From: Acidobacteriota bacterium
GTDB lineage: Bacteria; Acidobacteriota; Terriglobia; Terriglobales; Acidobacteriaceae
NCBI GenBank assembly: GCA_003225075.1
Contig: QIAP01000039.1
Span: 62,001 to 126,000, forward strand
DNA length: 64,000 nucleotides
Reading direction: 5' to 3'
In this document: in pieces, positions 11,237 to 60,633 of the stretch
Layout of the letters: the number at the start of each line of letters is the position of its first letter
Numbering within the stretch: the stretch's first letter is position 1
Made by a program: the position numbers and the translations under genes
Notes under the pieces: generated by a model
What the model saw: the letters and a program-made list of their open reading frames with translations, nothing else
What the model was told of the DNA's origin: nothing
The model's database searches: none

Positions 11237-11326
11237 TGGTCTGACACCTATACCATAACCTTGTCATCTGCTGTCAAGTCGCCTGTTAATAAATATCTTG
11301 ACAGCAAAACTCGTGGAGTGGTACAG
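11237..11326. promoter_or_regulatory. Divergent promoter/operator region between the dehydrogenase operon and the TonB receptor
   Basis: Two imperfect inverted repeats are visible: TGGTCTGACACCTATACCA at 11237-11255 (arms TGGT/ACCA) and CTTGTCATCTGCTGTCAAG at 11260-11278 (arms CTTGNCA/TGNCAAG). A plus-strand TTGACA lies at 11298-11303 with a weak -10 (GTACAG) after 17 bases. A minus-strand TTGACA at 11272-11277 is followed by TATAGG after about 19 bases. The repeats overlap the minus-strand promoter boxes, as expected for repression by the GntR/FCD protein encoded in the operon. The assignment of operator to regulator is inference from position. Confidence 0.4.
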
Positions 11327-11381
11327 CTGTCGGACCAGATTTTCGGGACTGCGCCCCAATATCTATCGGAGGACCCTTGTC

Positions 11382-36982: not shown

Positions 36983-37009
36983 ACAGCCCGGGCTTGTGAC
37001 CCGGGCTGT
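36983..37009. terminator. Strong stem-loop between convergent genes
   Basis: A perfect 10-bp stem ACAGCCCGGG/CCCGGGCTGT with a seven-base loop lies between the plus-strand membrane protein and the minus-strand coiled-coil protein. Only two or three T residues follow on the plus strand, so it may be a weak or bidirectional terminator. Confidence 0.55.
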
Positions 37010-37071
37010 TTACCGGAGAATATTCAGGCCCGCTCCCCCTGGTTCAGGCAGCGGCGTGGCATTCAATCTCT

Positions 37072-37335
37072 TTAGGGCCAGCGTTTTGCGGTATCCTCCC
37101 ACCCTGCGGCCCGCGCTGTTGGCGGGGTAGCATTGACCGCGGGCTGCGGGATCCGAATCGGTTGCTGCGTTGGCGAGGGCGTGGCCAGCGTTGGCTTGCC
37201 CGCGGATTCAATATTCGTATCTTTGCCCTCATCCGAGAGCAACGGAGCCGCGACTCGCAGCGCCTCAACTTCTTTTTCTAACCTGGACAGTTCCAGTTCC
37301 TTCTGCCTGAGGACCTCGTAAACGTTCTTCATCAT
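37072..37335 (-). CDS. Small coiled-coil protein, acidobacterial type
   Basis: 87 residues. The N-terminal part (NVYEVLRQKELELSRLEKEV, then EALRVAAPLL) is a two- to three-heptad coiled coil, followed by a Pro/Thr-rich tail without structure. Short proteins with this NVYEVLRQKE-type start are seen in acidobacteria; the function is unknown to me. ATG 37335 is chosen, with AGG five bases upstream; GTG 37341 is possible. It is convergent with the gene at 36500-36883. Confidence 0.65.
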   Translation of the reverse strand: MMKNVYEVLRQKELELSRLEKEVEALRVAAPLLSDEGKDTNIESAGKPTLATPSPTQQPIRIPQPAVNATPPTARAAGWEDTAKRWP

Positions 37336-37490
37336 GGGCACCTGAAAAACCTTTGTATAGAGCGAATGTTCGCACTTTATGCAGGCTTAACACGTTTGTC
37401 AAGAAGGAAGAAGCGAGCACGACAAAGGGTCACTCTCATGGCAATGACCCTGGGTTGTCGGGGCCCTCCATATTCAAGGAGGCGCGGTTC

Positions 37491-38969
37491 TTACGAGGAA
37501 CGAGACAACAGCAGGAAAATGATAATGAGTGCCAGCGCGACCAGTGCAGCGATCAAGTACTTGTGAGCGGCAAGCCACGACTCGTCACCTGTTGACTCGA
37601 TTCCACTCAAAAACTGCGGAATAAATCTTGCAGGTTCGGCGGGTACGCCTCTGCTGACCGCGGCCATGGCAGGATCATTGCCCTTGCTGGCGGAATCGCA
37701 GTCGAGGCAAAACTTTCTACCCTCCGAAACCGGAAAGCCGCAACCTTCACATTTATGGATATTTGCCGTTCCGCCGACAAACCCCTCTGGATTTATTCCA
37801 CTGGGGTCGCAGGATTCATGGTCAGTGGCATTAGCTGGCGCTTCCGCTATCACCCCGCCCCGGAGGCCGGTTGTTTTCTCACTCGGGCTGACCGCCTCCA
37901 CCTCGGGAGGCGTTTCCGGCGCAAGTGAAAACCCGGTCTCAGAAACTGCAAAAATCTTTGCCGGCTCCGTTCCCACTCCCGGAAGTATGTCCCCGTCGGC
38001 GGCCGCCGTAGACTTTGAGTCTGGCATATCAGATGGTTTTTCCTGAGTGGGTTTGGTTTCTTGCGCTGCACTCGGTCCTTGCGCGGAGTGGCGACGCGGT
38101 CCCCAGAAAACTACGCTGTGCTCTGTCGCTCGAGTAGGTTCCCGCGAAGGAACAGCCTCCTCGATGGTATCGCTTTCGGTCACCGAAGTAGTTTCAAGTT
38201 CTTCGATCCTGTCATCGGCCAGCGCATGATCTACCGTTCCCTTCCCATCGACGGTATCTGGACTCCTTACCCCAGTCTTGTCTGGCTCCGCCTGCTTAAG
38301 TGGGGTGTGCGCGGCTCGGGCATGATCTATCGCGGTGTGAACCATCTCTCCCATTCGTTCGAGGGTAGCAATATCGCGGGCTCCAAAGGTATAGGTCTTG
38401 TCGGAAAACAGCTCAAATACGCCTTCAACTTCACCGTCGCGCAACAATGGCATGATCACAACTGAAGCAATCCCCAATGCTCGACAGCTGTCCCGGTTTA
38501 CTCGCGCATCCGTCTCAGCATCGTCGCAACGCAAGATCTGGCGAGTGCGAACACTCTCTCCGGAAAGACCTGAATTTACCTGGAGCTGAGCCCCTAATTC
38601 GGGAGAGGAAGCGCCGGCGCTGGCGCGACAAAGCATGCCATCGCTATCCTTCAACGCGATAGCGGCACCAGTTGCGCCGGTGATGTATTGGGTACGTTCG
38701 ACGAGAAGTTGCAGCGTAGCATCCAACTCGCGTGTCGCCATCGCCGGCAAGGAATTGCCGCCATCATCGCGAAACGAGGAGGCAGATGTCGATTTCTGCT
38801 CTTCCTTATTTCCAAGTGCAGCGTCTGGCTGGGATTCAACGCCATCTTTCTCGGCTTCACCACTAGCAGCATCGTTGATTGCCGCCGGTCCCGGCGCCGT
38901 CGCACGCAAATCGGCGTCTTGGGACTCCAATGGAGAGCAACTTCCGCCGGCAATCGGATATTGGTCCAT
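37491..38969 (-). CDS. GAF-domain protein with zinc ribbon and C-terminal membrane anchor
   Basis: 492 residues. Residues about 80-215 form a GAF domain (LQLLVERTQYITGATGAAIA, SGLSGESVRTRQILRCDD, MPLLRDGEVEGVFELFS). A long acidic, disordered linker follows to about 400. A zinc ribbon with four cysteines (CEGCGFPVSEGRKFCLDCD) lies at 407-425, and a single membrane helix (KYLIAALVALALIIIFLLL) ends the protein. GAF domains bind small ligands or sense redox state; here there is no catalytic output domain, so a membrane-tethered sensor or scaffold is likely. The N-terminus may extend upstream, because no ribosome-binding site precedes this ATG. Confidence 0.8.
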   Translation of the reverse strand: MDQYPIAGGSCSPLESQDADLRATAPGPAAINDAASGEAEKDGVESQPDAALGNKEEQKSTSASSFRDDGGNSLPAMATRELDATLQLLVERTQYITGATGAAIALKDSDGMLCRASAGASSPELGAQLQVNSGLSGESVRTRQILRCDDAETDARVNRDSCRALGIASVVIMPLLRDGEVEGVFELFSDKTYTFGARDIATLERMGEMVHTAIDHARAAHTPLKQAEPDKTGVRSPDTVDGKGTVDHALADDRIEELETTSVTESDTIEEAVPSREPTRATEHSVVFWGPRRHSAQGPSAAQETKPTQEKPSDMPDSKSTAAADGDILPGVGTEPAKIFAVSETGFSLAPETPPEVEAVSPSEKTTGLRGGVIAEAPANATDHESCDPSGINPEGFVGGTANIHKCEGCGFPVSEGRKFCLDCDSASKGNDPAMAAVSRGVPAEPARFIPQFLSGIESTGDESWLAAHKYLIAALVALALIIIFLLLSRSS

Positions 38970-39177
38970 ACCAAATCTGACGTGGTCCTGCCCGCAGTGC
39001 TATCCAGACCCGGTTGCAATCGTTGCTCACGGGTCACAGACTCTTGCGCACTTGAACGGAGTGTCGCTCCCTGAGGAACAGACTGTCAAGACAGAATACC
39101 GCACGAAGGTCTCAGGCACGCGGACGCCTGAATCCCGAGCACGTAGAACTTTGCCCGCGCCTCCCCCCAACTCCATG

Positions 39178-40344
39178 CTAACCATGCAGCGCCAAACCCG
39201 CCACGCCCACTAGCGCTATGATTACCGGCTCGGGTACCTTCCAGCGGAACAGCAGCACGGCCAAGCTCACAATTGCTATCACCGCTGTCGGCAGATCATA
39301 AACCGATCGCCGCGCGAGCACGACGACTGCGCGATCGCTCCTGCGGCGGCCGCGGTTACTCCGCGCACGAATGCATTCAATTGTGGATTCTTCGCCCACT
39401 TTTTATACGATGGAGCTAGCGCCACTACCACTAAATACACAGGTAGAAACCCACCCAGCGCCGCCGCACCGGCACCGGCCGTGCCCGCAACCAAATATCC
39501 AATGAACGCCACCGTAATCACCACCGGCCCCGGCGTGATCATGGCGACTGCGACCGCGTCTACAAACTGACGATCAGTCAGCCAATGGTGTCCCTGCACT
39601 ACGCCGCCATATAAGAAAGGCATGATAGCGAGGCCGCTGCCGAAAACAAACATTCCAGCCTTGGCGAAATACAGAAAAACTTCCCACAACTGGCTGTTCG
39701 CCGGGAATGCTCCTGCTGCTACGAATAAACCCAAGCCAGTCGCGCTCCCCACACGCGCCCTCGCGGGAAACGATTTCACCAGCATTGCGATCACGCCTCC
39801 CAGCAGGAACAACCAGATAACCTCGCGCGAAGTCCAAGCGGTCGAGACCGCCAGCACAATAAAGATCGCTCACAACAGCCGGTCTCTGCCAAGAGTGATC
39901 TTCGTAAGCTTGAAAGCCGAGCGCGCGATAATCCCAATCACCGCTGCCCCAATTCCATAGAACTTTCCCTGCATCCAGCGCAGCCCTCCAAAGCGCACGT
40001 AGGCCGCCGAGAGGGCGAGCACCATCAAAAACGATGGCAGGACGAATGCCACTCCCACCAGCGTCGCCCCCAGCACCCCGGCGCAGGTAGCCCAGGTAGA
40101 TGGCCAATTGGGCTGGCAATGGGCCCGGAGCAAGCTGAGCCAGCGCCAGATCTTCGACATAGTCTTCTCTGCTGATCCAGTGCCGGTCATCGACCAGATC
40201 CTGCTGCATGTGGCCGGCGAGCGCGATGGGTCCGCCGACGCCCACTGTGCCCAGCCAGAGGAAATACCCGACGAATTGCCCGATTGAGGCCGGGTGTTGT
40301 GTTTGCTCCCGTTTTCCTTGGGCAGTTCCTTGGGTAGTGGTCAT
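39178..40344 (-). pseudogene. chrA: Chromate transporter ChrA, disrupted by two frameshifts and an in-frame stop
   Basis: Put together from three frames the sequence is a full two-domain CHR transporter: GQFVGYFLWLGTVGVGGPIA and LAQLAPGPLPAQLAIYLGY in the first frame, GVLGATLVGVAFVLPSFLMVL in the second, KAGMFVFGSGLAIMPFLYGG and DAVAVAMITPGPVVITVAF in the same frame after a stop, and PTAVIAIVSLAVLLFRWKVP in the third. The lesions are a frameshift near 40080, a TGA at 39870-39872 where a Trp codon is expected in this frame, and a frameshift near 39330. ChrA exports chromate or related oxyanions. GAGGG precedes the original start, and the gene is last in the chr operon. Three independent lesions argue for real decay rather than one read error. 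Confidence 0.85.
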
Positions 40345-40405
40345 ACCTAACGCCCTCAGCGAAGTGATTGCGCACTAACCGCTGAATCCGAGCTTATGTG
40401 GCAAG

Positions 40406-41353
40406 TTATTTTTTCGAGTTCGTGAGATCCACCGCCGCTCGGAGCCCCTTTGCCAATTTCATCGCATCATCATTTGCCCAGAAATGCATGAAGAACAGCC
40501 GCGGCTCCTCTGTCAGCATGTGGCTGTGAAGCGCGGTTATTTCAATTCCATTCTCCCGGAGCGCCTTCATCACCGGATTCACTTCCTTGCCAGCCAGCAC
40601 AAAATCGCCAGTAATAGCAGCCTTTCCGTTGCCCGTAGGCTGGAAGTTCAGCGCGGATCCAACGCCCATCGATGGCGGGACCGCCATTCCGTTATCGGTG
40701 ATCGTCTCAGCACGTGGGACAGTGATTTGCAAAACACCGCCATTCACCTTTCCGGGATGCCCGAGGAGATCTTCGATTTTCTTCTGATCAATTCCCAACG
40801 CCTCTGGCGAGGTCGCTGCCGGGCCGCCAGCATCCGGTCCCGGCGTTTTGGTCAGTGCTACAGCGTCATGGATGGCCTTAGCCATCTTTACCGCATCGCC
40901 ATGACTGGCCACATGCATGTACATCACACGTGGCGATTCGCCAATCAGGTGATTGTGGACCGCAGCTATTTCAACCCCGCCTTCCTGCAGTTTCCGCATG
41001 ACCGGCTCGACTTCCTCCTCAGTGAGCACCACGTCCCCCATAACCATGGCGCCGTTTTCCGCTTTCTTGAAAGCGATCCAGGATCCCAGCGCTAAACCCG
41101 GCTTGATCGCCACGCCGTTAAGGGTTACGTGTAGATCCTTGCGTGGCATGCCGAACTTGATCACATCTTCCATCATCTGCCCCGGCCGGCCCATGGCGTC
41201 TTCCACCTGCTTCCAGTCGCCGCTGGAGTTCTGAGTAGAGGGTGCTGCCTGCCCGGTAGCCGTATTACTCAGAATCGCTAACGACAATGCGGCGATCGCG
41301 CCCAGCACGAAAATGACAGCATCACGACTCGTGTTTCGAAATTGTTGTTGCAT
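40406..41353 (-). CDS. Exported protein with two DUF1259 domains (LpqO-like)
   Basis: 315 residues. An N-terminal signal peptide (AVIFVLGAIAALSLAILSNTA) is followed by two related DUF1259 units, about 47-165 and 190-312. Each contains a PG(Q/K) helix, a GVALGSW or MGVGSALNF core, a (V/L)(L)EEEVEPVM or AGKEVNPVM helix and a histidine pair (VHNHLIG, LHSHMLTEEPRLFF). The fold and role are unknown, but this family is found next to chromate-resistance genes in many bacteria. AAGG lies 8 bases upstream of the start. It lies between the ChrB-C gene and chrA on the same strand and its frame is intact. Confidence 0.88.
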   Translation of the reverse strand: MQQQFRNTSRDAVIFVLGAIAALSLAILSNTATGQAAPSTQNSSGDWKQVEDAMGRPGQMMEDVIKFGMPRKDLHVTLNGVAIKPGLALGSWIAFKKAENGAMVMGDVVLTEEEVEPVMRKLQEGGVEIAAVHNHLIGESPRVMYMHVASHGDAVKMAKAIHDAVALTKTPGPDAGGPAATSPEALGIDQKKIEDLLGHPGKVNGGVLQITVPRAETITDNGMAVPPSMGVGSALNFQPTGNGKAAITGDFVLAGKEVNPVMKALRENGIEITALHSHMLTEEPRLFFMHFWANDDAMKLAKGLRAAVDLTNSKK

Positions 41354-41447
41354 GACACTTACCTTTCTAGAACCAGATTTTGTTTGACGCTAATCAACGC
41401 AAATTGCTGTTGCCCACTTCGATGCTGGAAACAACCGTCAGGAGGCT

Positions 41448-41885
41448 TCAGCTCTCTTTGCTCCGGGCATACTGGTAAAGTGCGTCATAGACTGGAAATT
41501 GCCTGGCCAATCTTTCTTCGTCTGGCAGGTCCATTGCCGCAAATCCTTCTGCCATGGCCCGCAACCCAGCTCCCTCGGGAGCAAGATGTTCCTGCCCCCT
41601 TACGTCCGCCGCGCGCACGATTAATCCCAAGCGCGACAGCGCTGGGTCGCTCAACCCGAAGTCTTCGATAATGGCCTCGAACGAGCAGCGCGTGCCGCGA
41701 TGGTTCAACTTGACCTCGCTCAGGCGCGGTGCATCAAATGGAATTGCTCCTGTCCGCTCCGCGCTTTCCAGTAGCTGACCTTCTTCGACGAACAGAAACT
41801 CCGGTTGAGGATCAATAAACCGCCGAATGAGCCACGGGCACGCAACGCGATCCACCTTGATATTGCGACGGGTAATCCACTTCAT
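41448..41885 (-). CDS. Stand-alone ChrB C-terminal domain protein
   Basis: 145 residues. The protein begins WITRRNIKVDRVACPWLIRR, the exact type of sequence that starts the C-terminal half of ChrB, and continues with GAIPFDAPRLSEVKLNHRGT, CSFEAIIEDFGL and a helical end. In ChrB this half is preceded by a regulatory N-domain, which is absent here. It is the second ChrB-C-type sequence in the operon, diverged from the first, and intact. GAGG lies 6 bases upstream. A metal- or oxyanion-linked enzymatic or sensory role is assumed for the family but not established. Confidence 0.88.
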   Translation of the reverse strand: MKWITRRNIKVDRVACPWLIRRFIDPQPEFLFVEEGQLLESAERTGAIPFDAPRLSEVKLNHRGTRCSFEAIIEDFGLSDPALSRLGLIVRAADVRGQEHLAPEGAGLRAMAEGFAAMDLPDEERLARQFPVYDALYQYARSKES

Positions 41886-41920
41886 GCCAAACCTCTAGTA
41901 TCGGTCGAGAGAACCTCGGC

Positions 41921-42864
41921 TCAGTTAAGTCCCTGATACAAACCCTCAATCATGTCTATACCTCGCCGCAACAACTCGGCATCTGCGACGCCTTGTCCTG
42001 CCCAGCCATTCAGAACTTGATCAAGACCTTTGGCCTCTATCCGGCCAAACTTTTCATCGTCAAGGTCGGCATGGTGAACCATCTGCGCAATCTTCCTGAC
42101 CCGCGCATCGCGAATGGCAAAATGTTTGCAGAGCGTCTCAAACGTGCAGTCGTTCCCGCGGTGTCCGAATCCCTGAGGACTAAACATGTCGAATGGTATG
42201 GCGTCGGGATGGTTAGCTGGATCGTCACCGAAGACAAATCGCGCTTTGGGATCAACGAATCGGTGGATCAGCCAGGCTGACGAAACGCGGTCAATTCCTG
42301 GCCGAGTGCGTGTGATCCAAACCCGGTTCAGGTACTCGCGTGTCTTATTCCCCTTGTTAGTCGCAGGTGCCGCTCCGTCAGATTCCTCTATTCGAGCCAG
42401 CAAGGCCTCCACGCGACTCCCTAAAGGGTTTTTAAAAAAATCAATCACAGTGATCTCGTGGAATCGTTTTCCTAACCGGGCGAGTTGGCCTGTAGGTCGG
42501 CGCGACGGGAAGAACGTCCCTAGGTTCTTTAAGTCGCGCAGCAGGTTTTCATAGTCTTTGGAGCGGCTTGCACGAATAGATTCTTTATCTTTTGTTCCGG
42601 TAAGTCGTCGAACCCCTGAACTTGTGCTACCGATGCTTGTCCTTGGTAATTCCTGATCGCCGTAGCCAGCCATTCCAATTTTTCCTGATTGGCTGCGGTG
42701 TTGAGCAATAAATATCCAGAGCTTCTTAATGGCAGCACTCCATAGCGTTGCAGCTTACGCCAAACCTCGACGCGCTGGCTGGCGCGGCCTGCCGGAAGAC
42801 TGAATATGAGCAGCAGCCACGGCGCCTGCTTGGATGGTGCGCGCGAAGTTGGAGTTATAATCAT
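41921..42864 (-). pseudogene. chrB: ChrB chromate-resistance regulator, frameshifted
   Basis: Two frames make one ChrB. The N-terminal frame, from ATG 42864, has WLLLIFSLPAGRASQRVEVW and RYGVLPLRSSGYLLLN, the winged-helix-like start of ChrB. It then runs FDDLPEQKIKNLFVQA and goes out of frame near 42565-42572. The other frame continues SRSKDYENLLRDLKNL and holds the complete ChrB C-terminal domain (VWITRTRPGIDRVSSAWLIH, DMFSPQGFGHRGNDCTF). ChrB represses the chr operon and senses chromate. It is first in the operon, with a promoter-like palindrome just upstream. A single indel could be an assembly error, but chrA downstream is also broken. Confidence 0.8.
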
Positions 42865-42867
42865 TTC

Positions 42868-42890
42868 AATAACGTTACATGTATAACACA
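42868..42890. promoter_or_regulatory. Candidate chr operon promoter/operator
   Basis: Immediately upstream of chrB the sequence contains the perfect 8-bp palindrome TACATGTA (42877-42884) inside a larger imperfect inverted repeat GTTAC/GTATAAC. On the minus strand this overlaps TATACAT, a plausible -10 box, with TTGCTT about 15 bases further upstream. This fits autoregulation by ChrB but is positional inference only. The region also holds the upstream flank of the divergent msrA gene. Confidence 0.35.
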
Positions 42891-42982
42891 AATAGTGGAG
42901 AAGCAAAACGGGCTTGCGATATGCTACGGGAATGCCTTGTCGCTCGCAATGTTGCGCGACAAAGATCACGGAGTGATGAACA

Positions 42983-43456
42983 ATGGCTAAAGCAACCTTC
43001 GCCGCTGGGTGTTTCTGGGGAGTGGAAGCAACTTTCCGCCAGTTGCCCGGAGTTACTTCAACTCGCGTCGGCTACACCGGAGGGCAAACCTCCAACCCCA
43101 CCTATAAAGATGTCTGCTCCGACCAGACTGGTCATGCCGAAGCAGTAGAAGTGAAATACGATCCCGAAAAGATCTCTTATGAGCAACTGCTAAACGTGTT
43201 CTGGGAAAATCACGACCCGACGCAGCTCAATCGTCAGGGGCCGGATTCGGGTACCCAATATCGCTCTGCAATTTTTTTCCACACTCCCGAGCAAGAAACC
43301 GCTGCCAGGAATTCCAAGGATGAATTGCAGAAGTCAGGACGGTTTAACAAACCAATCGTGACGCAGATCGCTCCGGCAACCACCTTCTATGAGGCCGAAG
43401 GGTACCACCAGCAATACCTGGAGAAGCGTGGTCTTGCCACCTGCCAAATTAAGTAG
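42983..43456 (+). CDS. msrA: Peptide-methionine (S)-S-oxide reductase MsrA
   Basis: 157 residues. The catalytic Cys motif is GCFWG at 9-13, followed by [39 protein letters not shown] and the aromatic/acidic [13 protein letters not shown]; a C-terminal Cys (C154) could act as resolving residue. It reduces the S-epimer of methionine sulfoxide in proteins. It stands alone, divergent from the chr operon and convergent with map; the 27-bp gap to map contains a short TTGCCAG repeat. Confidence 0.96.
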
Positions 43457-43483
43457 GTTTCGCTTGCCAGTTGCCAGTTCGAC

Positions 43484-44242
43484 TCAGCGTCCCAGCACTT
43501 CTGCCGCGGTTAGCACCATCGGTTTGCCCTTGGTAATGACGATGGTGTGTTCGTAGTGAGCAGAAGGCCTGTGATCGGCAGTCTGCACCGTCCAACCGTC
43601 TTTTGCCAAGGTGGCTCTGCCGCTTCCGGCAGCAATGATGGGCTCAACCGTAATTACCATCCCTTCGGTCAGGACCTGAGTGGCTTGGGGATCAGCGTAG
43701 TTGGGAACGCGAGGTGCTTCATGGATGGTACGCCCAATGCCGTGTCCCCCCAGGTCGCGAATCACGGAAAAACCATCGCGGCGGACTTCGCGCTCGACGG
43801 CGCGTCCAATATCGGAAACACGGAACCCGGCACGCGCCACCAGCATTGCCTTGGCAAAGGCACGCTCCGCGCAGGCAATCAGGCGCTGAGATTCCTCTGA
43901 TACGGTACCTACCGGCACGGTGACCGCCGCGTCGGCCATAAAGCCATTCTTCTCCACCGTCACATCGAGTTTCAGCAGGTCACCCTCGCGCAGGGCCCTT
44001 TCGCCTGGGATGCCGTGCACAGCCTCGTCATTCAGGCTGATGCACGAGCTTCCGGGAAAATGGTAGACCAGTGCCGGCGCCGATTGTGCACCCTCGTCGC
44101 GCATCACTTTGTCGCCGATGGCGTCGAGCTCGGCAGTGGTTACTCCCGGACGCACATTTTGCTTCATCGCTTCAATGACGCGGCGCACCACATCTCCTGC
44201 CGCACGCATGCCTTCGAGCTCTTCCGGGCCAGTAATGGACAC
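43484..44242 (-). CDS. map: Methionine aminopeptidase, type I
   Basis: 252 residues of the M24A family. The metal ligands can be placed: the two Asp in LLKLDVTVEKNGFMADAAV, the His in GHGIGRTIHEAP, and Glu in MVITVEPII and in the final GWTVQTADHRPSAHYEHTI strand. It removes the initiator Met from nascent proteins. The start is GTG with GGAGG about 6 bases upstream. No infA or ribosomal genes are adjacent, so this may be a second or relocated copy. Confidence 0.95.
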   Translation of the reverse strand: MSITGPEELEGMRAAGDVVRRVIEAMKQNVRPGVTTAELDAIGDKVMRDEGAQSAPALVYHFPGSSCISLNDEAVHGIPGERALREGDLLKLDVTVEKNGFMADAAVTVPVGTVSEESQRLIACAERAFAKAMLVARAGFRVSDIGRAVEREVRRDGFSVIRDLGGHGIGRTIHEAPRVPNYADPQATQVLTEGMVITVEPIIAAGSGRATLAKDGWTVQTADHRPSAHYEHTIVITKGKPMVLTAAEVLGR

Positions 44243-44278
44243 GGAGTCCCTCCGTAAACAAATTAGATGTCCTATTGA

Positions 44279-44695
44279 TTAAGTTAACTCAGCAGAGGGC
44301 TGCCGTGGCCTAAAAAAAAGCATGAGGATAAACCCAGCCAAATAGAAAGGCGCCACTTGGGATAGAGTGAAACCGACAAAACAGAGGACCAATCCGAATA
44401 CCGCTAATGACTCGGAGAGTACATAAGTGACGATGTAGCCGGACTTCCACCGATTCAAAGTGGCTACATCGGTCGGCCGTGTCTTGAGTGTCGCCTCCGA
44501 TTGCAACACCAGCGTTCGTCGTACGACCAGGATCACCCCCACAATGGTGATAGCTGCCAGCGACAAAACATAAAAAATTACAGGGTTGGATGCCCTTGCC
44601 GCGGAGGCAAGCGATTGCCCGATGAAGACATACAATGCAATACTCACCAGCATTGCGATTTGAATTATCCGTATGGCTTTGACCGTCGATTCCAT
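44279..44695 (-). CDS. Small four-helix membrane protein
   Basis: 138 residues with four hydrophobic segments (IIQIAMLVSIALYVFIGQSL, VIFYVLSLAAITIVGVILVV, YIVTYVLSESLAVFGLVLCF, SQVAPFYLAGFILMLFF) and a short polar tail. The layout resembles small integral proteins found widely in acidobacteria; no family with known function is recognised. GAGGC is 12 bases before the ATG. It is 36 bases upstream of map on the same strand, so co-transcription is possible. Confidence 0.7.
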   Translation of the reverse strand: MESTVKAIRIIQIAMLVSIALYVFIGQSLASAARASNPVIFYVLSLAAITIVGVILVVRRTLVLQSEATLKTRPTDVATLNRWKSGYIVTYVLSESLAVFGLVLCFVGFTLSQVAPFYLAGFILMLFFRPRQPSAELT

Positions 44696-44815
44696 TGCAC
44701 CGATTGTGCCTCACTCAAGGGTACGCCGGTTGTGAAAATTGTGGTCACGGTGCCAGAGTCGGCAACAGGACGCGCTCACGGGATGCAGGCACTCGTATAT
44801 CACGATGGGAGCCGG

Positions 44816-46129
44816 CTAATGCGCGACCGTGTTCAAGGCCGGCCGGAGCCTGAGGAATACCCGGAAAGAAACCGGATTATTGCCGTAAATGGGATCAAGG
44901 GCGACGGGTTTGGAATAGAAGGTCACATCGCCTCCCAAACCAAGCTGCCAGGAGTGGCTTTGAATCAGATCCCGCACCCCGCCGAAAGTGTAGGCCCCAA
45001 TCCGAAATGAGGGACGGAGTAGCGCCGAAGGGAAAAGTTCGTCTTTGTCCACCAATTCCAGCCGGGTGTAGGCGTAGTTTCTTCGGGAGAAATTTGCCGT
45101 CGATTCCAGCACATAACTATTCTGGTTGGTGCCGTCAATATCCTTGTGCTTTCTGCCCCAGACCAATGATGTTGCCCAGTTGCCCTGGTTAAACGGCCGG
45201 TTGTATTCAATGGACGCAGTTTGCCGCCGCTCGCTTCCGGGCTCCAGGGCTTCGGGATGTTCCAGTCGCCCGTAGCTGTACTGGGCTGTCCAGTTGGGGC
45301 TGGGAGCCAGGCTCAATCTTGCTGACCACGAATCGAGCGCAGCCAATTGAATGCTCCACCGTTGTTCATTGGGTTCGCGGCCGTTGAATGCTGAACCTTC
45401 AAGTTTGAAATGGTCAATCACGATGCCCGTAGTTACAACTCCAAAACTGGTATGGGTAGAGTCTTGCAGATGATGCCCAAGCGGCGCGGCTGGCAATTCC
45501 GCTGCCGGAGCCCGATGAATGTACGCGACCGGGCCTAAGGCAGGCTCCGCCGCCGGGCCTCCATAGAACAGCCATGACACTTTGTCGGTTATCGGCCGTG
45601 AGTAGTACATCGACAGCTCGGCGAAAACGTTGTGAGGATGCTGATGATCGACCAGCGGTGATCCATGGTAGGTTTCTCCGGTCTGAAAAAGTTCGGGAAA
45701 ACCGGGATGCGGCGAGGTCAACGATTCGGCGGAGAACATCTGGCGGAATAGAAGCGTTCCCGAGCCCAGCCGATGTTGCTCCATAATCATCAGCCAGTTC
45801 ACCGACTCGGCTTTGCCTGCGCCGCGAGGTCCACCTTGCTGGTTATAAGTCAAAAATAGTACGCCATGTGCCATGAAATCCCATTTGCCACGAGAAGTCA
45901 TCCACTCATGCGCGGGAGCGGAGGCTGGTTCCCATCCTGTACCTGAACCGGAGTGAGGCGAGGGCAGAAACGCTTTCGCTTTATCCATGCTCATTCCTGA
46001 CATGTCCTGCATTGTCTGGCCAGACTGGCTTGGTCCAGACATTTGCATTCTGTGGTCAGCATCATCCTGCGCCAGAGACAAGCAGGCCAAAAATGTGACT
46101 GCGAATAAGTACAAGCTTGCACTATGCAC
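44816..46129 (-). CDS. Outer-membrane beta-barrel-like protein with Met/His-rich N-terminus
   Basis: 437 residues. After a signal peptide (ending near LSLAQ) comes a Met/His/Ser-rich segment (HRMQMSGPSQ, then MQDMSGMSMDK) that resembles copper-binding linkers. The rest has the alternating pattern of an outer-membrane barrel (TAQYSYGRLEHPEALEPG, SRRNYAYTRLELVDKDELF, VTFYSKPVALDPIYGNNPVS). Similar proteins occur next to multicopper oxidase and CopC/CopD genes. The start is GTG with GGAGTG 5 bases upstream. The next minus-strand gene upstream encodes a small Cys/His-rich protein, which fits a metal-handling pair; the metal is not proven. Confidence 0.75.
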   Translation of the reverse strand: MHSASLYLFAVTFLACLSLAQDDADHRMQMSGPSQSGQTMQDMSGMSMDKAKAFLPSPHSGSGTGWEPASAPAHEWMTSRGKWDFMAHGVLFLTYNQQGGPRGAGKAESVNWLMIMEQHRLGSGTLLFRQMFSAESLTSPHPGFPELFQTGETYHGSPLVDHQHPHNVFAELSMYYSRPITDKVSWLFYGGPAAEPALGPVAYIHRAPAAELPAAPLGHHLQDSTHTSFGVVTTGIVIDHFKLEGSAFNGREPNEQRWSIQLAALDSWSARLSLAPSPNWTAQYSYGRLEHPEALEPGSERRQTASIEYNRPFNQGNWATSLVWGRKHKDIDGTNQNSYVLESTANFSRRNYAYTRLELVDKDELFPSALLRPSFRIGAYTFGGVRDLIQSHSWQLGLGGDVTFYSKPVALDPIYGNNPVSFRVFLRLRPALNTVAH

Positions 46130-46216
46130 GAATCACTCCAGCGTTGAGAACCAAGTCCAATGAGATTTGAGAACGAGGAGACGTTAAGACAACGAAGTTC
46201 GCTAAATGCGATGGGT

Positions 46217-46570
46217 TTAGATACGGAGGGACCGGCTGTGAGGTTGGTCGCCGGGTAGGGCTAACAGAGTTCGGGCGGTGTTCAACATACGTCCCGACGT
46301 CGGGCGCTGGCTGGATTCAGTCACCGCTGAGATGTAAAGAAGGAGCAATGGTCGCGAAACAAAAGACTGTTCGAGCACCGCCGGGTCGTGTGGAGTTCGG
46401 CAGCACGAATGACTTGCGGGTTCGGGTGCGGAGGGTTTTGGGTAGTGCTGATGACAGCCGGCTGCGCGCGTACGTGGAGAATCAGTTGCAGCAACAACGT
46501 ATGCTGCCAGGGAAGCGGCAGTTACCGCTGTCAATAGCATCCACGCGACCGCTTTCGAGAGAAGCTGCAT
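46217..46570 (-). CDS. Small Cys/His-containing exported or membrane protein
   Basis: About 117 residues from ATG 46570. The N-terminus is a hydrophobic segment (LLSKAVAWMLLTAVTAASLA). The mature part has GCHQHYPKP and SHSCCRTPHD, a cluster of three Cys and several His that could bind a soft metal, then a second weakly hydrophobic segment (RPLLLLYISAV). A TTG at 46600 would add 10 residues. It lies 87 bases upstream of the Met/His-rich barrel gene on the same strand. I do not recognise a named family. Confidence 0.6.
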   Translation of the reverse strand: MQLLSKAVAWMLLTAVTAASLAAYVVAATDSPRTRAAGCHQHYPKPSAPEPASHSCCRTPHDPAVLEQSFVSRPLLLLYISAVTESSQRPTSGRMLNTARTLLALPGDQPHSRSLRI

Positions 46571-46640
46571 TACCACGTCATGGGATGCGAGATCCTGCAA
46601 TGATGATTCGGGATACGGGCAAATTAATTCGCTGGCCGCA

Positions 46641-47084
46641 TCACGATCCTGTGATCTTCAATCTCACCTCTTCCGGGAGACGCTCGCGAATCTCCTGGGG
46701 AAGGCGGTCGTGCACATGCCGTGCTCCGAGTCGGGCTGCGTCCACGACGGCCATGGGGGCGGGAGTCGCGACTGCCACTGCCAGCCAGATCAGGGCTGAC
46801 AGCGCAAATCCGCCCAGCGCAGCGATCTCAAGCCAGAAGGCGTGCCGGGGTCCGAAGTGGCGAATCACTCCGAAGGCCAGCAGGAACACTCCAGCCGACA
46901 CCGAAGCCAAAACAATCAGGGAGACGTCAATGGTGCGGTGCAAACGCTGGCGGGAGCGGCAGTATTCGCAGCCCGCAAAGTGGTGTTCGTAGTCGCCACG
47001 CATCTCGGGCGCCAGACCGGAAATGTCATAGCGCCATCCGGCTAGTATCTTACCCACGATAGGGTCAACGCACTGCTGACTCAT
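46641..47084 (-). CDS. Membrane protein with N-terminal ZAS-type zinc motif
   Basis: 147 residues. The N-terminus has the anti-sigma-factor-like zinc motif HxxxCxxC in HFAGCEYCRSRQRLHR, followed by two membrane helices (VSLIVLASVSAGVFLLAFGV and FWLEIAALGGFALSALIWLA) and a charged, amphipathic C-terminal helix (RLPQEIRERLPEEVRLKI). Such small ZAS proteins usually bind an ECF sigma factor, but no sigma gene is adjacent. It ends 71 bases before the preceding Cys/His gene and starts 7 bases after the MBL-hydrolase stop, suggesting one minus-strand transcript. Confidence 0.7.
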   Translation of the reverse strand: MSQQCVDPIVGKILAGWRYDISGLAPEMRGDYEHHFAGCEYCRSRQRLHRTIDVSLIVLASVSAGVFLLAFGVIRHFGPRHAFWLEIAALGGFALSALIWLAVAVATPAPMAVVDAARLGARHVHDRLPQEIRERLPEEVRLKITGS

Positions 47085-47090
47085 ATGGAA

Positions 47091-47894
47091 CTACAGTCGA
47101 ATCGGCTCCAGTGGTTCGGACTGAGTCGCCAACATCACCCGATTGCGGAGCAGACTCTGACGTGGAGCGAGCGCCTTTTCTGCTGCCCCCCGAGCGATCT
47201 CCGGATGATTATTCTGCTCCGAGAGATGCGCCAGCACAACGTATGCTGCCTCTCCATCATAGTCTTCAGCAAAGAAATCCGCGAGGGCCTCGTTGGAAAG
47301 GTGCCCCACCCGGCTCATCACCCGTTGTTTAACCGACCATGGGTAAGGGCCTCCGCGCAGCATTTCAAGATCGTGGTTTGATTCCAGCACCAGCACATCA
47401 CAGCGCCGCAAGTTGTCGCACACGCTGGGCGGCACGTAGCCAAGATCGGTGGCAAAGCCAACTTTTACACCTTCCGCGCGAAAGGTGAATCCCACCGGAT
47501 CGGCGGCATCATGGGGAATGGTAAACGGCATGACCGTGATATCGCCTATCACAAAGCTCTTGCCCGAGGAAAAGACTTCCAACCTCTCAAGCTTGGGCCG
47601 CGCCCCGTTGGCGTCGCGCACCGATCTGGTCCACGCCTGATGGGTCGCGCCAGTCATGAAAATAGGTGACTTCATTTTCTTGGAAAGCACGTGCAAACCA
47701 TAGACGTGGTCGGAATGCTCATGAGTAATGAGGATGGCGGAAAGAGAGTGGGGGTCATCACCCAGCGCCTTCATGCGCTTAAAAGTTTCGCGGCAGGAAA
47801 TGCCCGCATCCACCAGAATGCGAGTACAACTGCTGGAAACGATGGCACAGTTTCCTCGACTGCCACTGGCCAGCACTGATACCGACACACCCAT
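47091..47894 (-). CDS. MBL-fold metallo-hydrolase, YycJ/WalJ-like
   Basis: 267 residues from ATG 47894. The protein opens SVLASGSRGNCAIVSSSCTRIL and has the metal motif ITHEHSDHVYGL (HxHxDH), then TIPHDAADPVGFTFRAEGVKV, GFATDLGYVPPSVCDNL and VLESNHDLEMLRGGPYPWSVK, exactly the YycJ/WalJ-type exonuclease-like beta-lactamase family. In Firmicutes WalJ coordinates cell division with DNA replication and is a 5'-exonuclease-like enzyme; the role in this organism is not known. A longer start at 48029 would add 45 residues with no homology. Confidence 0.88.
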   Translation of the reverse strand: MGVSVSVLASGSRGNCAIVSSSCTRILVDAGISCRETFKRMKALGDDPHSLSAILITHEHSDHVYGLHVLSKKMKSPIFMTGATHQAWTRSVRDANGARPKLERLEVFSSGKSFVIGDITVMPFTIPHDAADPVGFTFRAEGVKVGFATDLGYVPPSVCDNLRRCDVLVLESNHDLEMLRGGPYPWSVKQRVMSRVGHLSNEALADFFAEDYDGEAAYVVLAHLSEQNNHPEIARGAAEKALAPRQSLLRNRVMLATQSEPLEPIRL

Positions 47895-48158
47895 AGGCTC
47901 GCAGCATACCCGCAAAGCGGCGTAATCGGGAGTGACTTTTTGGTTATCTGCTACTTTTGTGCTGGAGCGGCGGGAATCAAATTTCCGGACAGCGCAGTCG
48001 CGCCGATACCTGGGGAGGAGTCTGCACAAAAAGCGTCAGTGTAAAAGGGTTGCCTAAGTACGTTTCACCTTAGCAGGGCCGCGTAATATACTTAATCCAA
48101 CATCAATCTCACACAACCTGGCCGCGGAGGTCTTATAAGTGTGCCCCGGTGGTGAAGA

Positions 48159-49043
48159 ATGAGTACGGCTGTGGCGCCCGCCCTGTCCCCCGAACGCATA
48201 GCCCGGCGGATTGCTGCTCGCTTCCGTATTGCGATCCCTGTGGATGTGACCGTGTTGCGCTCCGGTATTCCGGATAGCGTTCCCGGACGCTCTCTCAATC
48301 TGGGGAATGGCGGCATGGGGGCGGCGGTCGCGGCGGAGTTGTTCCCCGGCGAATCCGTGGGTGTGGAATTCCGCCTTCCCTATGTCGGCTTGCCGCTCCA
48401 GGCGCGAGCTTTGGTGCGTTATCAAGACCGCTTGCACTACGGACTTCAATTCCTCGGGTTGACCGCCGAGCAGCAAGCCATGCTTGGTTATTGGTCGAGG
48501 CGTACGGCAGAAGCGCATCCCGAAACCAAACTAGCGGAGCTGACGCCAAAAAACCTTCCGTTGAATGCGCCGGAAGTAACAAGCGAAAGTTTGCCAGCCA
48601 GCGAGCAGCCTCACCTGACTTTACGTCGGCGTCACAACGGACGGGGGCTGGCCATGAGTTTCGCATTGCTCATGGTCATCACCGTCTTGGGCTGGTGGCA
48701 TTGGCAACGCGGATGGAGAGAACTGGAAACTCATCTTACGGATCGGAATGGCATCTCTTCACCGTCGCGGGTGAAAGTGCCCGCTAGTGTGATGGAGCGG
48801 CGTATCACCCATAAGGTCGATCCGGCCTATTCGCAGACGGCGCGGGCGGCCAAGACGCCAGAAGTCGTGGTGCTCGACGCGATAGTCGGCAAAGATGGCA
48901 CGGTAATAGGATTGCATCCTCGGAGCGGACCCTCGGACCTGGCGCTCGCCGCCTCAGAGGCGGTGCGCTGGTGGCGCTTTGAACCTTATCGCGTGAATGG
49001 CCAACCGGCGGAAGTGGAGACTACGCTGGCGGTGCAATTTTGA
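48159..49043 (+). CDS. PilZ domain - transmembrane - TonB C-terminal domain fusion
   Basis: 294 residues in three parts. Residues about 10-110 are a PilZ-like domain: an RIAAR (RxxxR) motif at 17-21, RFRIAIPVDVTVLR, NLGNGGMG in place of the usual DxSxxG, and HYGLQFLGL. A single membrane helix lies at about 163-182 (GLAMSFALLMVITVLGWWHW). Residues about 210-294 form a TonB_C domain (MERRITHKVDPAYSQTARAA, VVVLDAIVGKDGTVIGLHPRS, ALAASEAVRWWRFEPYRVNG). The topology puts PilZ in the cytoplasm and TonB_C in the periplasm. PilZ domains bind cyclic di-GMP; the second motif here is degenerate, so binding is uncertain. The 3' end is two bases from the convergent ligase gene. Confidence 0.9.
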   Translation: MSTAVAPALSPERIARRIAARFRIAIPVDVTVLRSGIPDSVPGRSLNLGNGGMGAAVAAELFPGESVGVEFRLPYVGLPLQARALVRYQDRLHYGLQFLGLTAEQQAMLGYWSRRTAEAHPETKLAELTPKNLPLNAPEVTSESLPASEQPHLTLRRRHNGRGLAMSFALLMVITVLGWWHWQRGWRELETHLTDRNGISSPSRVKVPASVMERRITHKVDPAYSQTARAAKTPEVVVLDAIVGKDGTVIGLHPRSGPSDLALAASEAVRWWRFEPYRVNGQPAEVETTLAVQF

Positions 49044-49045
49044 AG

Positions 49046-50629
49046 TCAATCTGGTTCGCTCAACTGCTGCCGCAGCTTGAAGCGTTGCAGTTTGCCGGTT
49101 GCTGTTTTTGGCAGTTCAGGTAAGAATTCGATCCAGCGCAAACGCTTGAACACAGGCAATCGGCTGGTTACCAAGTTCTTGAGTTCGCCTTCCAGTTCAG
49201 GAGTACCGGTTGCGCCATTTCTCAAAACTACGCAAGCTAGCGGCTTGATCAGTTCGTCGCGGTCTTTTCTGCCAATTACCGCCGCTTCCTGCACCGCAGG
49301 ATGCTCGATTAACAGGTTTTCAATTTCAATTGGACTGACCCAGACGCCGGAGACTTTCAGCATGTCGTCCGAACGCCCGGCATACCAGAAATAGTCATCC
49401 TCATCCTGGTGGTACTTGTCGCCAGTGCGAATCCACTGGCCTTCGATGGTTTCTTTCGTCTTGTCGTGCTGGTTCCAGTAAAGAGCACAGGTGGAATCCG
49501 CTTTGACCAGCAGGTTACCGATCTCACCTGTTCCCACCGCTTGATTACTCTCGTCGACGATCCTGGCTTCGTATCCCGGAATTACCTGGCCGCTGGATCC
49601 AGGACGGATAGCGCCGGGGCGATTAGCAATAAACATGTGCAGGACTTCGGTGGAACCGATGGCGTCGAGGATCTCCACTCCAAAGCGCTCTTTGAAGCGG
49701 TAAAAAATCGCCGCCGGAAGAGCTTCGCCGGCGGAAACCCCATGACGGACCGAGGAAAGGTCGAAATCCTTGTCATGCTCTCGAGGATGAGCGAGTAGGG
49801 CGGCATAGTTCGACGGTACCGAAAAGAAGATTGTGGGACGATGGCGCTCGATGACGTGGAAAACCTGCTGCGGTTTGGGTGGTCCGGGGCAAAGAATGCT
49901 GGTTCCACCCACAGCCAATGGAAAATACAGCGCGTTACCCAGGCCGTATGCGAAAAAAAGCTTGGCTACACTGAAGCAGCGGTCTCGTTCGGTCATCTGG
50001 AGAATCGCTTTGGCGTACCGCTCGGCGCAGACCACCATGTCATGTTGCAGATGGACGCAAGCCTTGGGAAATCCCGTCGAGCCGGAAGAATAGAGCCAAA
50101 AAGCGGCGTCATCCTTGCTGGTGAGCTCAGGGTCCAGTTCTGGCGAGCTCCGATCCATCAATTCGCTGAAAAGATGAGTGTCTGAAGGCACTTCCCCGCC
50201 GACTACGATGACATGCTTAAGAAAACGCAATCGTCCATTGGGAATCGCTTGCAGTTGCGGATAAAGCGAATCGCTGACAATCGCCACTCGTGCCCGCGAA
50301 TTATTCAGCATGTATTCGTAGTCGGCGGGCTTCAGCAGAGTGTTGACCGGGACGGGCACGGCTCCAATCTTAATGGCGCCGAAAAAACTGGCGGCAAATT
50401 CCGGGGTATCGAGCAGCAGGAGGAAAACGCGTTCCTCGATGCACACCTCAAGCTGGCGAAGCCCGTTGCCGACGCGGTTTACGTGCTCATGGAGTTGCCG
50501 GTAAGTAACACGGAGGTCAGCGCATTCGATAGCGACTTTTTCCCCACGTCCTTCCGCAAGGTGGCGATCGATAAAATATTCAGCAGCATTGAATTGATCT
50601 GGGAGCAGAATCGGATCACCCGCAGTCAT
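49046..50629 (-). CDS. Benzoate-CoA ligase-like acyl-CoA synthetase
   Basis: 527 residues from ATG 50629. It is an ANL-superfamily adenylating enzyme: the P-loop-like motif is FWLYSSGSTGFPKACVH, the aromatic-acid-binding stretch includes KLFFAYGLGNALYFPL, A5 is AIGSTEVLHMF, and the C-terminal lysine motif is LPKTATGKLQR. The whole layout and the N-terminal NAAEYFIDRHLAEG match the benzoate-CoA ligase family, which activates benzoate or similar aromatic acids with ATP and CoA. Its ATG overlaps the upstream stop (ATGA), so it is translated with the small membrane protein of the molybdenum-hydroxylase operon. Confidence 0.9.
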   Translation of the reverse strand: MTAGDPILLPDQFNAAEYFIDRHLAEGRGEKVAIECADLRVTYRQLHEHVNRVGNGLRQLEVCIEERVFLLLLDTPEFAASFFGAIKIGAVPVPVNTLLKPADYEYMLNNSRARVAIVSDSLYPQLQAIPNGRLRFLKHVIVVGGEVPSDTHLFSELMDRSSPELDPELTSKDDAAFWLYSSGSTGFPKACVHLQHDMVVCAERYAKAILQMTERDRCFSVAKLFFAYGLGNALYFPLAVGGTSILCPGPPKPQQVFHVIERHRPTIFFSVPSNYAALLAHPREHDKDFDLSSVRHGVSAGEALPAAIFYRFKERFGVEILDAIGSTEVLHMFIANRPGAIRPGSSGQVIPGYEARIVDESNQAVGTGEIGNLLVKADSTCALYWNQHDKTKETIEGQWIRTGDKYHQDEDDYFWYAGRSDDMLKVSGVWVSPIEIENLLIEHPAVQEAAVIGRKDRDELIKPLACVVLRNGATGTPELEGELKNLVTSRLPVFKRLRWIEFLPELPKTATGKLQRFKLRQQLSEPD

Positions 50630-51024
50630 CGGGAAAGGGCGCGATGCTTGCGAATGGCCGCAAGAATGACAACGCTGCTGATGCCGAAACTTCCCACCGC
50701 GCCCAAGGCCATCAACTCTGAGAGTTGCGGGCTGAGGCGAAGGGAGTCTGCGAACAAAGCAACCAGCGCAAAGAGCACGCCGAGCACATTCAACCACAAT
50801 GGGCTGTGAACCCTTGCCGCCAGGTCGCGGCGGAACAGCACTTGCAATAAGACCGCTGCCAGTCCGATAGCAGATATAACGACCACGGCGAGGGGGCTGA
50901 AAAAGGCACTGCGGCTGGTATAGATCACGACCAGTGCGAGCGCAGCGATGAGCAAACCGGAGCCGATGACGGTCCAGCGGCGGGATGAGGTTGATGCAGC
51001 GTGCTGCGCGTTGGCCTCAGACAT
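50626..51024 (-). CDS. Small membrane protein in the molybdenum-hydroxylase operon
   Basis: 132 residues with four hydrophobic segments (WTVIGSGLLIAALALVVIY, FFSPLAVVVISAIGLAAVLL, LWLNVLGVLFALVALFADSL, LMALGAVGSFGISSVVILAAI) and polar termini. No known family recognised. GGAGGAGG lies about 10 bases before the ATG, a strong site. The gene lies between the FAD subunit (75 bases upstream) and the ligase (4-base overlap), so it is part of the five-gene operon; a role in anchoring or substrate entry is possible but unproven. Confidence 0.75.
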   Translation of the reverse strand: MSEANAQHAASTSSRRWTVIGSGLLIAALALVVIYTSRSAFFSPLAVVVISAIGLAAVLLQVLFRRDLAARVHSPLWLNVLGVLFALVALFADSLRLSPQLSELMALGAVGSFGISSVVILAAIRKHRALSR

Positions 51025-57224: not shown

Positions 57225-60200
57225 TTAGAAAACGAACCGGATCGCAAAATTCATATTTCTCGGACCGCCTTGGGCAACGACTGGATTGCCGACGGCGACA
57301 TCTGAGGTCTGGTTGACCTGTCCGAACGTCTTCGCTGTATTCACGATGTTATTCACAAAGTAGTAGAAGTTGCCCCGATTTAGGACATTAAAAACCTCCC
57401 ACCGGAACTGCATCTCAAGACGCTCGTTAATCTTTGTATTCTTAATCACCGACATATCCCATTGTGCAAGTCCGGGACCAATCAACTGGTTACGGTGAGA
57501 GGTACCCACCGTACCGCTACAAGGACGGAAGAAGGGAGACAATGGTAGCCCCCCCGAATCGTCACCGCACGGATCTGGCTGACCCGCGGTGGTGTAACTT
57601 TCAGCGACATAATTCAGCGGGTCGCGCGTGTTGTAGTGAACTGGCGTTCCATCCCACGAGGCGCGAATAGAAGAACCTCTCAGGCCTTGACCCGATGGAT
57701 CACTCCCGCCTATGAGCGCGGTAAAGGGACGCCCGCTAATCGCCGTGAAAATAGTGCTGATCTGCCATCCATTGAACCATTTTCCGAAAGCTGGAATTGA
57801 AGGCACATCGTAAACCCCACCGACATTGAAGTTCAGCCGGACGTCATGATCGCAAAGTCCGTACGAATCCTTCACATTGAGTGGGTTATTTAACTGGGGG
57901 TAATCGCCCGCCCCGCCGCGATTGACAGAGTTATAGTCATAGCACTTGCTCCAGGTGAAGTTCGTCTGGGTGTTGAAGCCATGGAAATGCCGCTGATTGA
58001 ATGACGCCTGCAGACTGTCATATTGGGATTTCGCCAAATTGGTTAATTGAATGATATGTTTCAGGTCCGGGAAATCGGTAGATAAGGGGCGATCGCCAAA
58101 ACTACCCAACGGACTCGCATTCAAATCCCGATACAGCGCCAGATTGCCGCCTCGTCGTCCGCAATACGTGAGCGTGAAGGCATTATCTCTGGCAATTTCG
58201 TGTTGAATACTCAGGTTGAAGTTGTGGGTGTGCGGGGTCTTGAAGTCTTTCACTACAGAGAAAGCGTTGAAGGGACCAGGAATAGTTCCGAAAAGCGGCC
58301 CATCCAGGCAAATGTAATCGCCCGAGAGCGAGGCGGTATCAAAGCAATTGTTGGGAGTTTCCGGGATGCTACCGGCGCCCGCCGTATAGTCGACCGCGAG
58401 AGAAGCGAACTGTCCAAGATTGGGCTGAGTAAAGGCGCCCGCTCGCGCACCAGCAAAGCTATACGGAGCAGCAATGGCGGCAAAGTTAGCAACATCATAG
58501 GTGAGCGAGTATCCTCCACGTAAGGCTGTTCTGCCATTGCCAGATACGTCCCAGGCAAAACCTGCCCTTGGGCCGAAGTCCCCCTTATCCAGGTCATAAA
58601 GTCGGTCAATACCTTGACCAAGGGTGACGAATCCGCGACCTGGGAAAAAATTCGAACCGATATTGTTCTTCTCACCCAAAGCGCCATTTAGGTCATAACG
58701 CAGCCCGAGCGTAAGAGTAAGGCGAGGACGAACCTTCCAGTCATCCGTAAAGTAAAGCCCAACCGACTTTTGGATGATGTGGCGATGAGTGTCGCCAAAA
58801 TTGCGGCTGGCTTCGTCCATCTTGCCCGTGAGAAGTTCTTCAAGTACCGCACAGTCGAGAGTGTTCGCATAAGCGCTGCATTCTGGGCTCGGCGAATACC
58901 CGAACGCAAAGAGGCCGGTGCGGGCGCGATTGCGCAGGCTATTGGTATAAGCATTCTGATAATTACCGCCCATTTTCATGCTGTGGTTGCCCTTGATCCA
59001 ACTGAAGTGCTCGGACCAGTCATAGGTCTGATCCGGAGCAGTAGTAATGGGATAGCCCTGCACTCCGCCAATGTATCCAGTGAACCCGTACATGTAGACG
59101 TAGGGAACCCCGAAGTCTGTGGGATCGAGCGGTCCGGTATCCACACCCAAACTCTTCGGATCAATCTTGTTGTTCACTTTGATGATTTGCGAGAAGCGGT
59201 TCCAGCCGAAACGGCTCTCCAGGACTTTATTGTTAGCTAGATTCCAGGTGTGGCTAAGGCCCGCCATTTGTGCCCGGCTGGGCGCCACCGAATTGAACAT
59301 ATCTGACGGAAACGGAGGCGGAGGGGGAACTGAAAACGATGGCGCGGATTGCAGACTGTCACCGAAAACGTACCTGCCCGACAATTGCATAGTGGAGCTT
59401 AATTTGTGATCGAGCTTAAATCCAAAGGAGTCCATAGTTGCCGTGGTGGGAGTGAAATACACCACGTTGTTATCAGAGGGCGTCGTACTGGGAGAAATCG
59501 GAAAAAACTTAAACAGGTTTTCGCCTGCGGTGCTTGTGGTCCCACCCTCCGCGGCAATTGCGGCACGAGCCGCCGCTACGTCTGCTTGATTCGGAACACT
59601 AAAATTCTTGGTCGCAAAAGAAACGTAACGCTGCCCTTCGTAATAGACGAAGAAGAAAGTCTTATCCTTGATAATTGGTCCACCAAAAGTGCCACCGAAT
59701 TGCATGTTGCGCAGTGGGGTGGGCTGGCAAGAACCGGGCGCGGAGCAACCGTCGATTTTCGCAAAGTAATTCGCGGCATCGGCAAAACTTGTGTGGCGAA
59801 CCCAGCGGGCGTCGCCGTGGAACCCATTGGTTCCGCTCTTCATAACCATATTTATAGGAGCACCGCCCTTCACTCCGAATTCAGCCGAAGGGTTTTCCTG
59901 TATGCCTAATTCCGCAACAGCTTCCGGCGGAAATAGCACCGCTGGCATCCCCACCACGCCAGGCTGGCCGATGGACTGGTCTCCATAGTAGCGGTCGTTG
60001 TTATACAACCCATCAATCAGGTAGTTATTTGCTGTGGTCCGCGATCCATTTATGCTGATCGCCAGAAAGCCGCCACCCGGAGCACGCTGCACGCCAGGAG
60101 TGACTGCCAGAACCGAATTGAGGTCCCGTCCATTCAGCGGCAACGCGTTGATCTTCTCGCTATCTACATAGTTATTCTCATTGCCAGAGAATTCCACGAG

Positions 60201-60581: not shown

Positions 60582-60633
60582 GAGACCCCCTAATTTCGAT
60601 GTATCGACTCGAAACACGCCCAACTAGCGGATA

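Follow-up and report, generated by a model that had tools for sequence, protein, structure and literature searches.

The closest described systems are TonB and Alg44. The C-terminal domain of TonB has a fold that binds its partners by beta-strand addition. In a survey of proteobacterial TonB proteins the median linker length was 113 and the shortest linker 40 (PMC12204202), and a motif called the D-box, an alternating hydrophobic strand between prolines, is located after the transmembrane (TM) helix (PMC10907165). Few PilZ receptors have their output domain in the periplasm, and the one compared here is Alg44, the alginate co-polymerase of Pseudomonas aeruginosa, which is laid out as a PilZ domain, a TM helix and a periplasmic domain, and which interacts with the alginate polymerase (PMC8461298). 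PilZ domains that do not bind cyclic di-GMP (c-di-GMP) and serve as scaffolds also exist, as reviewed in PMC10333796. A family of PilZ–TM–TonB_C proteins would add a new output fold to these receptors. Among the openly licensed full texts of PubMed Central, a collection outside which most subscription journals stand, no PilZ–TonB fusion was recognisable by title or abstract, and no text combined 'PilZ domain', TonB, ExbB and transmembrane.

The window analysed is a stretch of 64,000 nucleotides of acidobacterial DNA. It contains, at 48159..49043 on the + strand, a gene encoding 294 aa from its ATG, with a PilZ domain, one TM helix and a TonB C-terminal (TonB_C) domain in that order (open reading frame and Pfam; gene calls in the window and in its relatives were all made from open reading frames). 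The gene is monocistronic, its upstream neighbour being divergent and its downstream neighbour convergent. The original prediction had proposed such a fusion on one chain, with a cytoplasmic PilZ and a periplasmic TonB_C, and this predicted arrangement was upheld by Pfam, by hydropathy, by AlphaFold2 and Foldseek, and by its occurrence at about 20 loci. In the domain-architecture search both domains scored above the curated cut-offs, PilZ with 34.9 bits (residues 22–109, cut-off 22.5) and TonB_C with 33.7 bits (residues 222–294, cut-off 24.6). Hydropathy revealed a single hydrophobic segment at residues ~163–181. Because an Arg/His stretch, RRRHNGRG, stands just before it, the PilZ side is predicted by the positive-inside rule to be cytoplasmic, and the TonB_C side periplasmic.

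An AlphaFold2 model of the protein, computed from 17 sequences, had a mean pLDDT of 63. A PilZ-like barrel was modelled with moderate confidence, and the predicted cytoplasmic PilZ domain was placed at residues 16–112 (48204..48494, + strand). The model has a helix at residues 161–190, and the single TM helix was assigned, with hydropathy, to residues ~161–183 (48639..48707, + strand). It is overlapped by a juxtamembrane motif, W-x-W-x-x-G-W-x-x-L-E, defined by alignment conservation (residues 180–190, 48696..48728, + strand). A pLDDT below 50 at residues 183–201, together with a comparison of linkers, delimited a short disordered periplasmic tether that is not proline-rich (residues 191–204, 48729..48770, + strand). 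From about residue 205 the model enters the predicted periplasmic TonB_C domain (residues 205–294, 48771..49040, + strand), a block with pLDDT mostly 80–89. In a Foldseek search of the PDB, TonB C-terminal domains ranked first, including that of FoxA:TonB 6i97 (TM-score by target length 0.77), and the PilZ domain of Alg44 with c-di-GMP (4rt0/4rt1) was matched more weakly (E ~0.04–0.14).

The same architecture was found at about 20 other acidobacterial loci, with 38–60% identity. A pattern scan of genome contigs gave a relative at 17 loci, all titled acidobacterial, 16 of which matched over most of the protein, and additional full-length copies were present among relatives of the window's genome. 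When 396 genomes of the phylum were scanned, with the best six candidates of each scored, full-length matches were obtained in at least two, both of the same bacterial family. An alignment of 17 family sequences had 44 invariant columns, and W180, W182, G185, W186, L189 and E190 of the juxtamembrane motif are invariant (alignment A1). Mean column identity was 0.73 in PilZ, 0.79 in the juxtamembrane residues 180–190 and 0.75 in TonB_C; in the variable parts it was 0.42 (cytoplasmic linker), 0.47 (TM) and 0.41 (periplasmic tether). A frameshift or a chance open reading frame was ruled out by this conservation at about 20 loci and by the invariant residues in both domains. The window copy has Ser225, within AYSQ (residues 223-226, 48825-48836), where 23 of 24 sequences have the Pro of a YP motif, and Glu235 where 19 sequences have Gly; its TonB_C may be the more altered copy. 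One locus, L079:800-1636 of genome G036, encodes PilZ and TM only. When it was examined for a frameshift, no TonB_C was seen in the three downstream forward frames; it is either a natural truncation or the result of misassembly, the genome being 76% complete.

We propose that the fusion is a single-pass inner-membrane receptor, with PilZ inside and an interaction domain outside, that its likeliest partner is surface-polysaccharide machinery, and that it is not an ExbBD-driven TonB; we give this reading an even chance of being correct. The PilZ domain would sense c-di-GMP, perhaps with an altered affinity because the motif serine is a glycine. The TM helix and the juxtamembrane WWxWxRGWxxLE motif would pass the signal on, and TonB_C would dock, close to the inner membrane, on a partner. 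In the lineage where the fusion gene adjoins polysaccharide genes, the likeliest partner would be inner-membrane or periplasmic surface-polysaccharide machinery, as with Alg44. Both proteins have an N-terminal cytoplasmic PilZ domain with RxxxR, one TM helix and a C-terminal periplasmic domain; the PilZ model of the fusion matches the Alg44 structures, and its orthologues stand near polysaccharide genes in 13 relatives, with no Poly_export gene on the window's contig. In contrast to Alg44, the periplasmic domain of the fusion is TonB_C and not a membrane-fusion domain, which is another fold, its second motif has Gly for Ser, and no Alg8-type synthase was identified for it.

The sensing step depends on the PilZ domain. 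Its RxxxR motif (R17–R21, RIAAR, 48207..48221, + strand) has both arginines invariant in 24 of 24 sequences, as is G52, the last residue of the second c-di-GMP motif, N47-L-G-N-G-G52 (48297..48314, + strand). This second motif does not match [D/N]xSxxG, Ser being replaced by Gly, but N and the final Gly are retained. The original prediction had read NLGNGG correctly; its description of the motif as degenerate had to be revised, since Gly at the Ser position is a feature of the family. Of the 24 sequences, 17 have Gly at position 49, four Cys and one Ser, and all have N, D or E at position 47 (22 of them N or D), so that the family variant can be written [NDE]xGxxG. By this alignment, the change characterises the family and does not mark decay of the window copy, and a degeneration peculiar to the window was ruled out.

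In a tree of PilZ domains, the short fusion, the long fusion, REC–PilZ and GAF–PilZ proteins and the stand-alone PilZ protein of locus L100 formed one clade with 100/100 support, and the L100 protein is the only one, among the other alignable PilZ domains of the genome, to share the Gly. Proteins of the same clade with a C-terminal PilZ were seen at L080:1714-2697, L081:1405-2595, L082:2158-3183 and L083:1852-2685. That of L082 is a receiver plus PilZ by Pfam, those of L080 and L081 are similar by reading, and that of L083 resembles GAF–PilZ by reading; a relative of the small MKNVYEVLRQ gene is near the genes of L080–L082. By profile search, the window's genome has 13 GGDEF matches and 38 PilZ matches. 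A direct sequence search of solved PilZ structures with the fusion protein alone gave no match, and with the family profile MotI/YpfA was the only significant one.

Binding of c-di-GMP by this PilZ domain is plausible from its motifs. Weak or absent binding is possible, as the motif Ser has been lost while most other alignable PilZ domains of the genome retain it. Were the domain non-binding, PilZ would be a protein-docking module and the whole protein a constitutive membrane scaffold, for which the scaffolds mentioned above offer a precedent. The Ser is missing in 23 of 24 members, as this alternative would have it, but the invariance of R17, R21 and G52 and the restriction of position 47 to N, D or E are unexpected if the ligand site had been abandoned, and we regard a scaffold as unlikely, though worth keeping in view.

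For the docking step of the proposed receptor, gene neighbourhoods were compared across relatives by synteny, and two recurring settings were seen around the fusion gene. In the first, a gene for an 86-aa protein is directly upstream in six loci, preceded in four of the six by a gene for a GAF–zinc-ribbon–TM protein. This setting includes the short forms L056 and L069, the long forms L150 and L074 described below, and L148 and L151, which have the small gene only, L151 being without TonB_C. In the second setting, a small TM gene comes after the fusion gene, and beyond it are either LuxR and Wza/Wzz/CpsD genes (nine loci: L059, L061–L064, L068, L071, L147 and L149) or dTDP-rhamnose genes (four loci: L057, L060, L067 and L146). 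L146 is arranged differently, with glycosyltransferase, Wzy and sugar-transferase genes beyond. In these 13 relatives the fusion gene is at most ~6 kb from the Wza/Wzz/CpsD or dTDP-rhamnose genes. At L147, whose orthologue is 39% identical, the upstream flank differs and the order of fusion gene, small TM gene, LuxR and Wza–Wzz–CpsD is kept.

Genomes G006 and G007 have four and six Poly_export genes, respectively, and in each genome the fusion gene has one of them as a neighbour at ~2–3 kb. By our estimate, a Poly_export gene would be found within ~3 kb by chance roughly once in a hundred per genome, a figure to be read with the shared ancestry of these loci, which are not independent. Because the genomes with polysaccharide-linked loci are related, these loci represent few independent events. 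On the window's contig, a profile search found no Poly_export gene. The informative neighbourhoods suggest, from gene order, a connection with surface polysaccharide genes, and hence a regulator of the envelope or of polysaccharide that would be under signal control.

The window itself corresponds to the first setting. The divergent neighbour of the fusion gene (47091..48029, − strand) encodes a metallo-beta-lactamase-fold hydrolase (Pfam Lactamase_B_2), and the convergent neighbour (49046..50797, − strand) an acyl-CoA ligase-like protein, common to L056 and L150 by synteny and called a ligase by reading. The nearest conserved partners are ~10 kb away. At 37491..38969 (− strand) is encoded a GAF–zinc-ribbon–TM protein, homologous to the product of the gene that, in relatives, precedes the fusion gene by two places (Pfam GAF_2 64.9 bits, tblastn and synteny; zinc-ribbon cysteines and C-terminal TM by reading). 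At 37075..37332 (− strand) is encoded an 86-aa protein (MKNVYEVLRQKELEL…GWEDTAKRWP), homologous to that encoded directly upstream of the fusion in L056, L069, L148, L151, L150 and L074 (84% identity by tblastn). Both ends of the 86-aa protein are conserved, and its L056 homologue had no Pfam match. Compared with L056, gene order and strands in the window at ~37000-48100 fit a single inversion by which the fusion gene would have become separated from the GAF gene and the small gene.

These neighbours raise another reading, in which the fusion would form a membrane signalling module with the GAF–zinc-ribbon–TM and 86-aa proteins, and the output would not be polysaccharide. It is consistent with the small gene standing immediately before short and long forms alike at six loci, at four of which the GAF gene precedes it, with the presence of the block, inverted, in the window, and with the GAF–PilZ and REC–PilZ proteins of the same PilZ clade. 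However, the block is missing beside most of the polysaccharide-linked orthologues, within the flanks examined, and gene order alone is no proof of interaction; we consider a module of this kind improbable.

There remains the comparison with TonB. The fusion shares with it a single TM helix with the N terminus inside and the fold and profile of the C-terminal domain, which are supported by the Pfam score of 33.7 bits, by profile matches to TonBs of the PDB and by Foldseek. It differs from TonB by the large PilZ domain before the TM, by its short tether without a proline-rich region, and by a location that is not beside exbBD. In every member of the short family that was measured, 38–47 residues with 2–5 prolines separate the TM from the point where the TonB_C model begins, whereas for tonB genes, in this genome and in relatives, the figure was mostly 120–131 residues with ~23 prolines. 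These lengths are based on hydropathy, by which L066 and L068 of the short family gave no TM at the threshold used; the TonBs L039 and L041 were set aside for a false TM in a glycine-rich linker. According to the AlphaFold2 model, the unstructured tether would span only ~15 residues. The motor-binding motif SHLS of the TM helix was present in none of the 24 family sequences, which is a weaker argument, since the acidobacterial TonBs compared often have SxxxQ in place of the exact motif. By eye, the family has no D-box after the TM; the TonB of the genome carries QLMTFLVAPPPP there.

The genome, assembled in 259 contigs and counted here by profile searches, has its own tonB-exbB-exbD-exbD operon on contig C62, in which exbD was assigned by reading the sequence. 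Its only two MotA/ExbB genes are the one in this operon and one on contig C120; the window is on contig C6, and the same profile search found no exbB near the fusion gene. A match to TonB_C should not be taken for TonB function, because the genome has 25 TonB_C matches for two ExbB/TolQ-type motor genes.

Two large outer-membrane barrels are encoded in the window, at 11298–14972 (CarboxypepD_reg and OMP_b-brl_4 by Pfam) and at 57225–60623 (CarboxypepD_reg, OMP_b-brl_4 and Plug). The original prediction had pointed to two large TonB receptors there. The barrels are indeed present, but 66 stretches of the genome match the same barrel model, and their co-location with the fusion gene says little and was given no weight as a functional link. 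In the relatives viewed, no receptor gene was noticed beside the fusion gene, by inspection and not by profile.

The proposal that c-di-GMP would alter energy transfer to outer-membrane receptors was not supported for the window protein, because the tether is far shorter than the linkers of the tonB genes; the missing SHLS and the separate tonB operon weigh against it as well. Since its TonB-like part is on a very short tether, the fusion probably does not drive such receptors, and it is probably not an ExbBD-driven TonB. That it is nevertheless a c-di-GMP-gated TonB, with PilZ controlling the coupling of ExbBD to the receptors through TonB_C, we hold to be very improbable: its TonB_C is genuinely of the TonB type, dozens of receptors are encoded in the genome and the syntenic-locus relatives L150 and L074 have Pro-containing linkers of periplasm-spanning length, but the short tether, the lack of a proline-rich region, of SHLS and, by eye, of a D-box, and a dedicated tonB operon elsewhere, with no exbB at hand, argue against it.

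The long forms, L150/L073 (453 aa) and L074 (483 aa), consist of PilZ, a zinc-ribbon-like stretch (by reading), TM, a long linker and TonB_C (61–66 bits). Their linkers are 148 and 157 residues long, with 18 and 21 prolines, respectively. The genes flanking L150 are common to the window and L056, and L074 has the same upstream genes. Long-linker fusions resemble the short forms by their cytoplasmic signalling domain, TM and TonB_C, and their PilZ is in the same fully supported clade. They differ (L150/L073, L074, L077 and L005, all of the same bacterial family) by linkers of 145–159 residues with 13–21 prolines and by a zinc ribbon or GAF. It is possible that long forms span the periplasm, and the idea of a gated TonB suits them more than it does the window protein. 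A comparison of short and long forms that have neighbours in common would be a natural way to ask if force transducers and local docking proteins are set apart by the length of their linkers.

A broader history can be imagined, in which Acidobacteria recruited TonB_C as the output of PilZ and GAF domains, the long-linker proteins being c-di-GMP-gated TonBs and the short-linker ones inner-membrane polysaccharide regulators converted at the same locus. We hold this scenario to be doubtful at best; if true, the long-linker members would give a second messenger control over outer-membrane import. The joining of a cytoplasmic signalling domain to TonB_C is, judging from predicted proteins, a recurring design in the window's genome. 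Two GAF–TM–TonB_C proteins are encoded there, at L077:1101-2561 (contig C152, 487 aa) and L005:169-1731 (contig C120, 521 aa); their linkers measure 145 and 159 residues, respectively.
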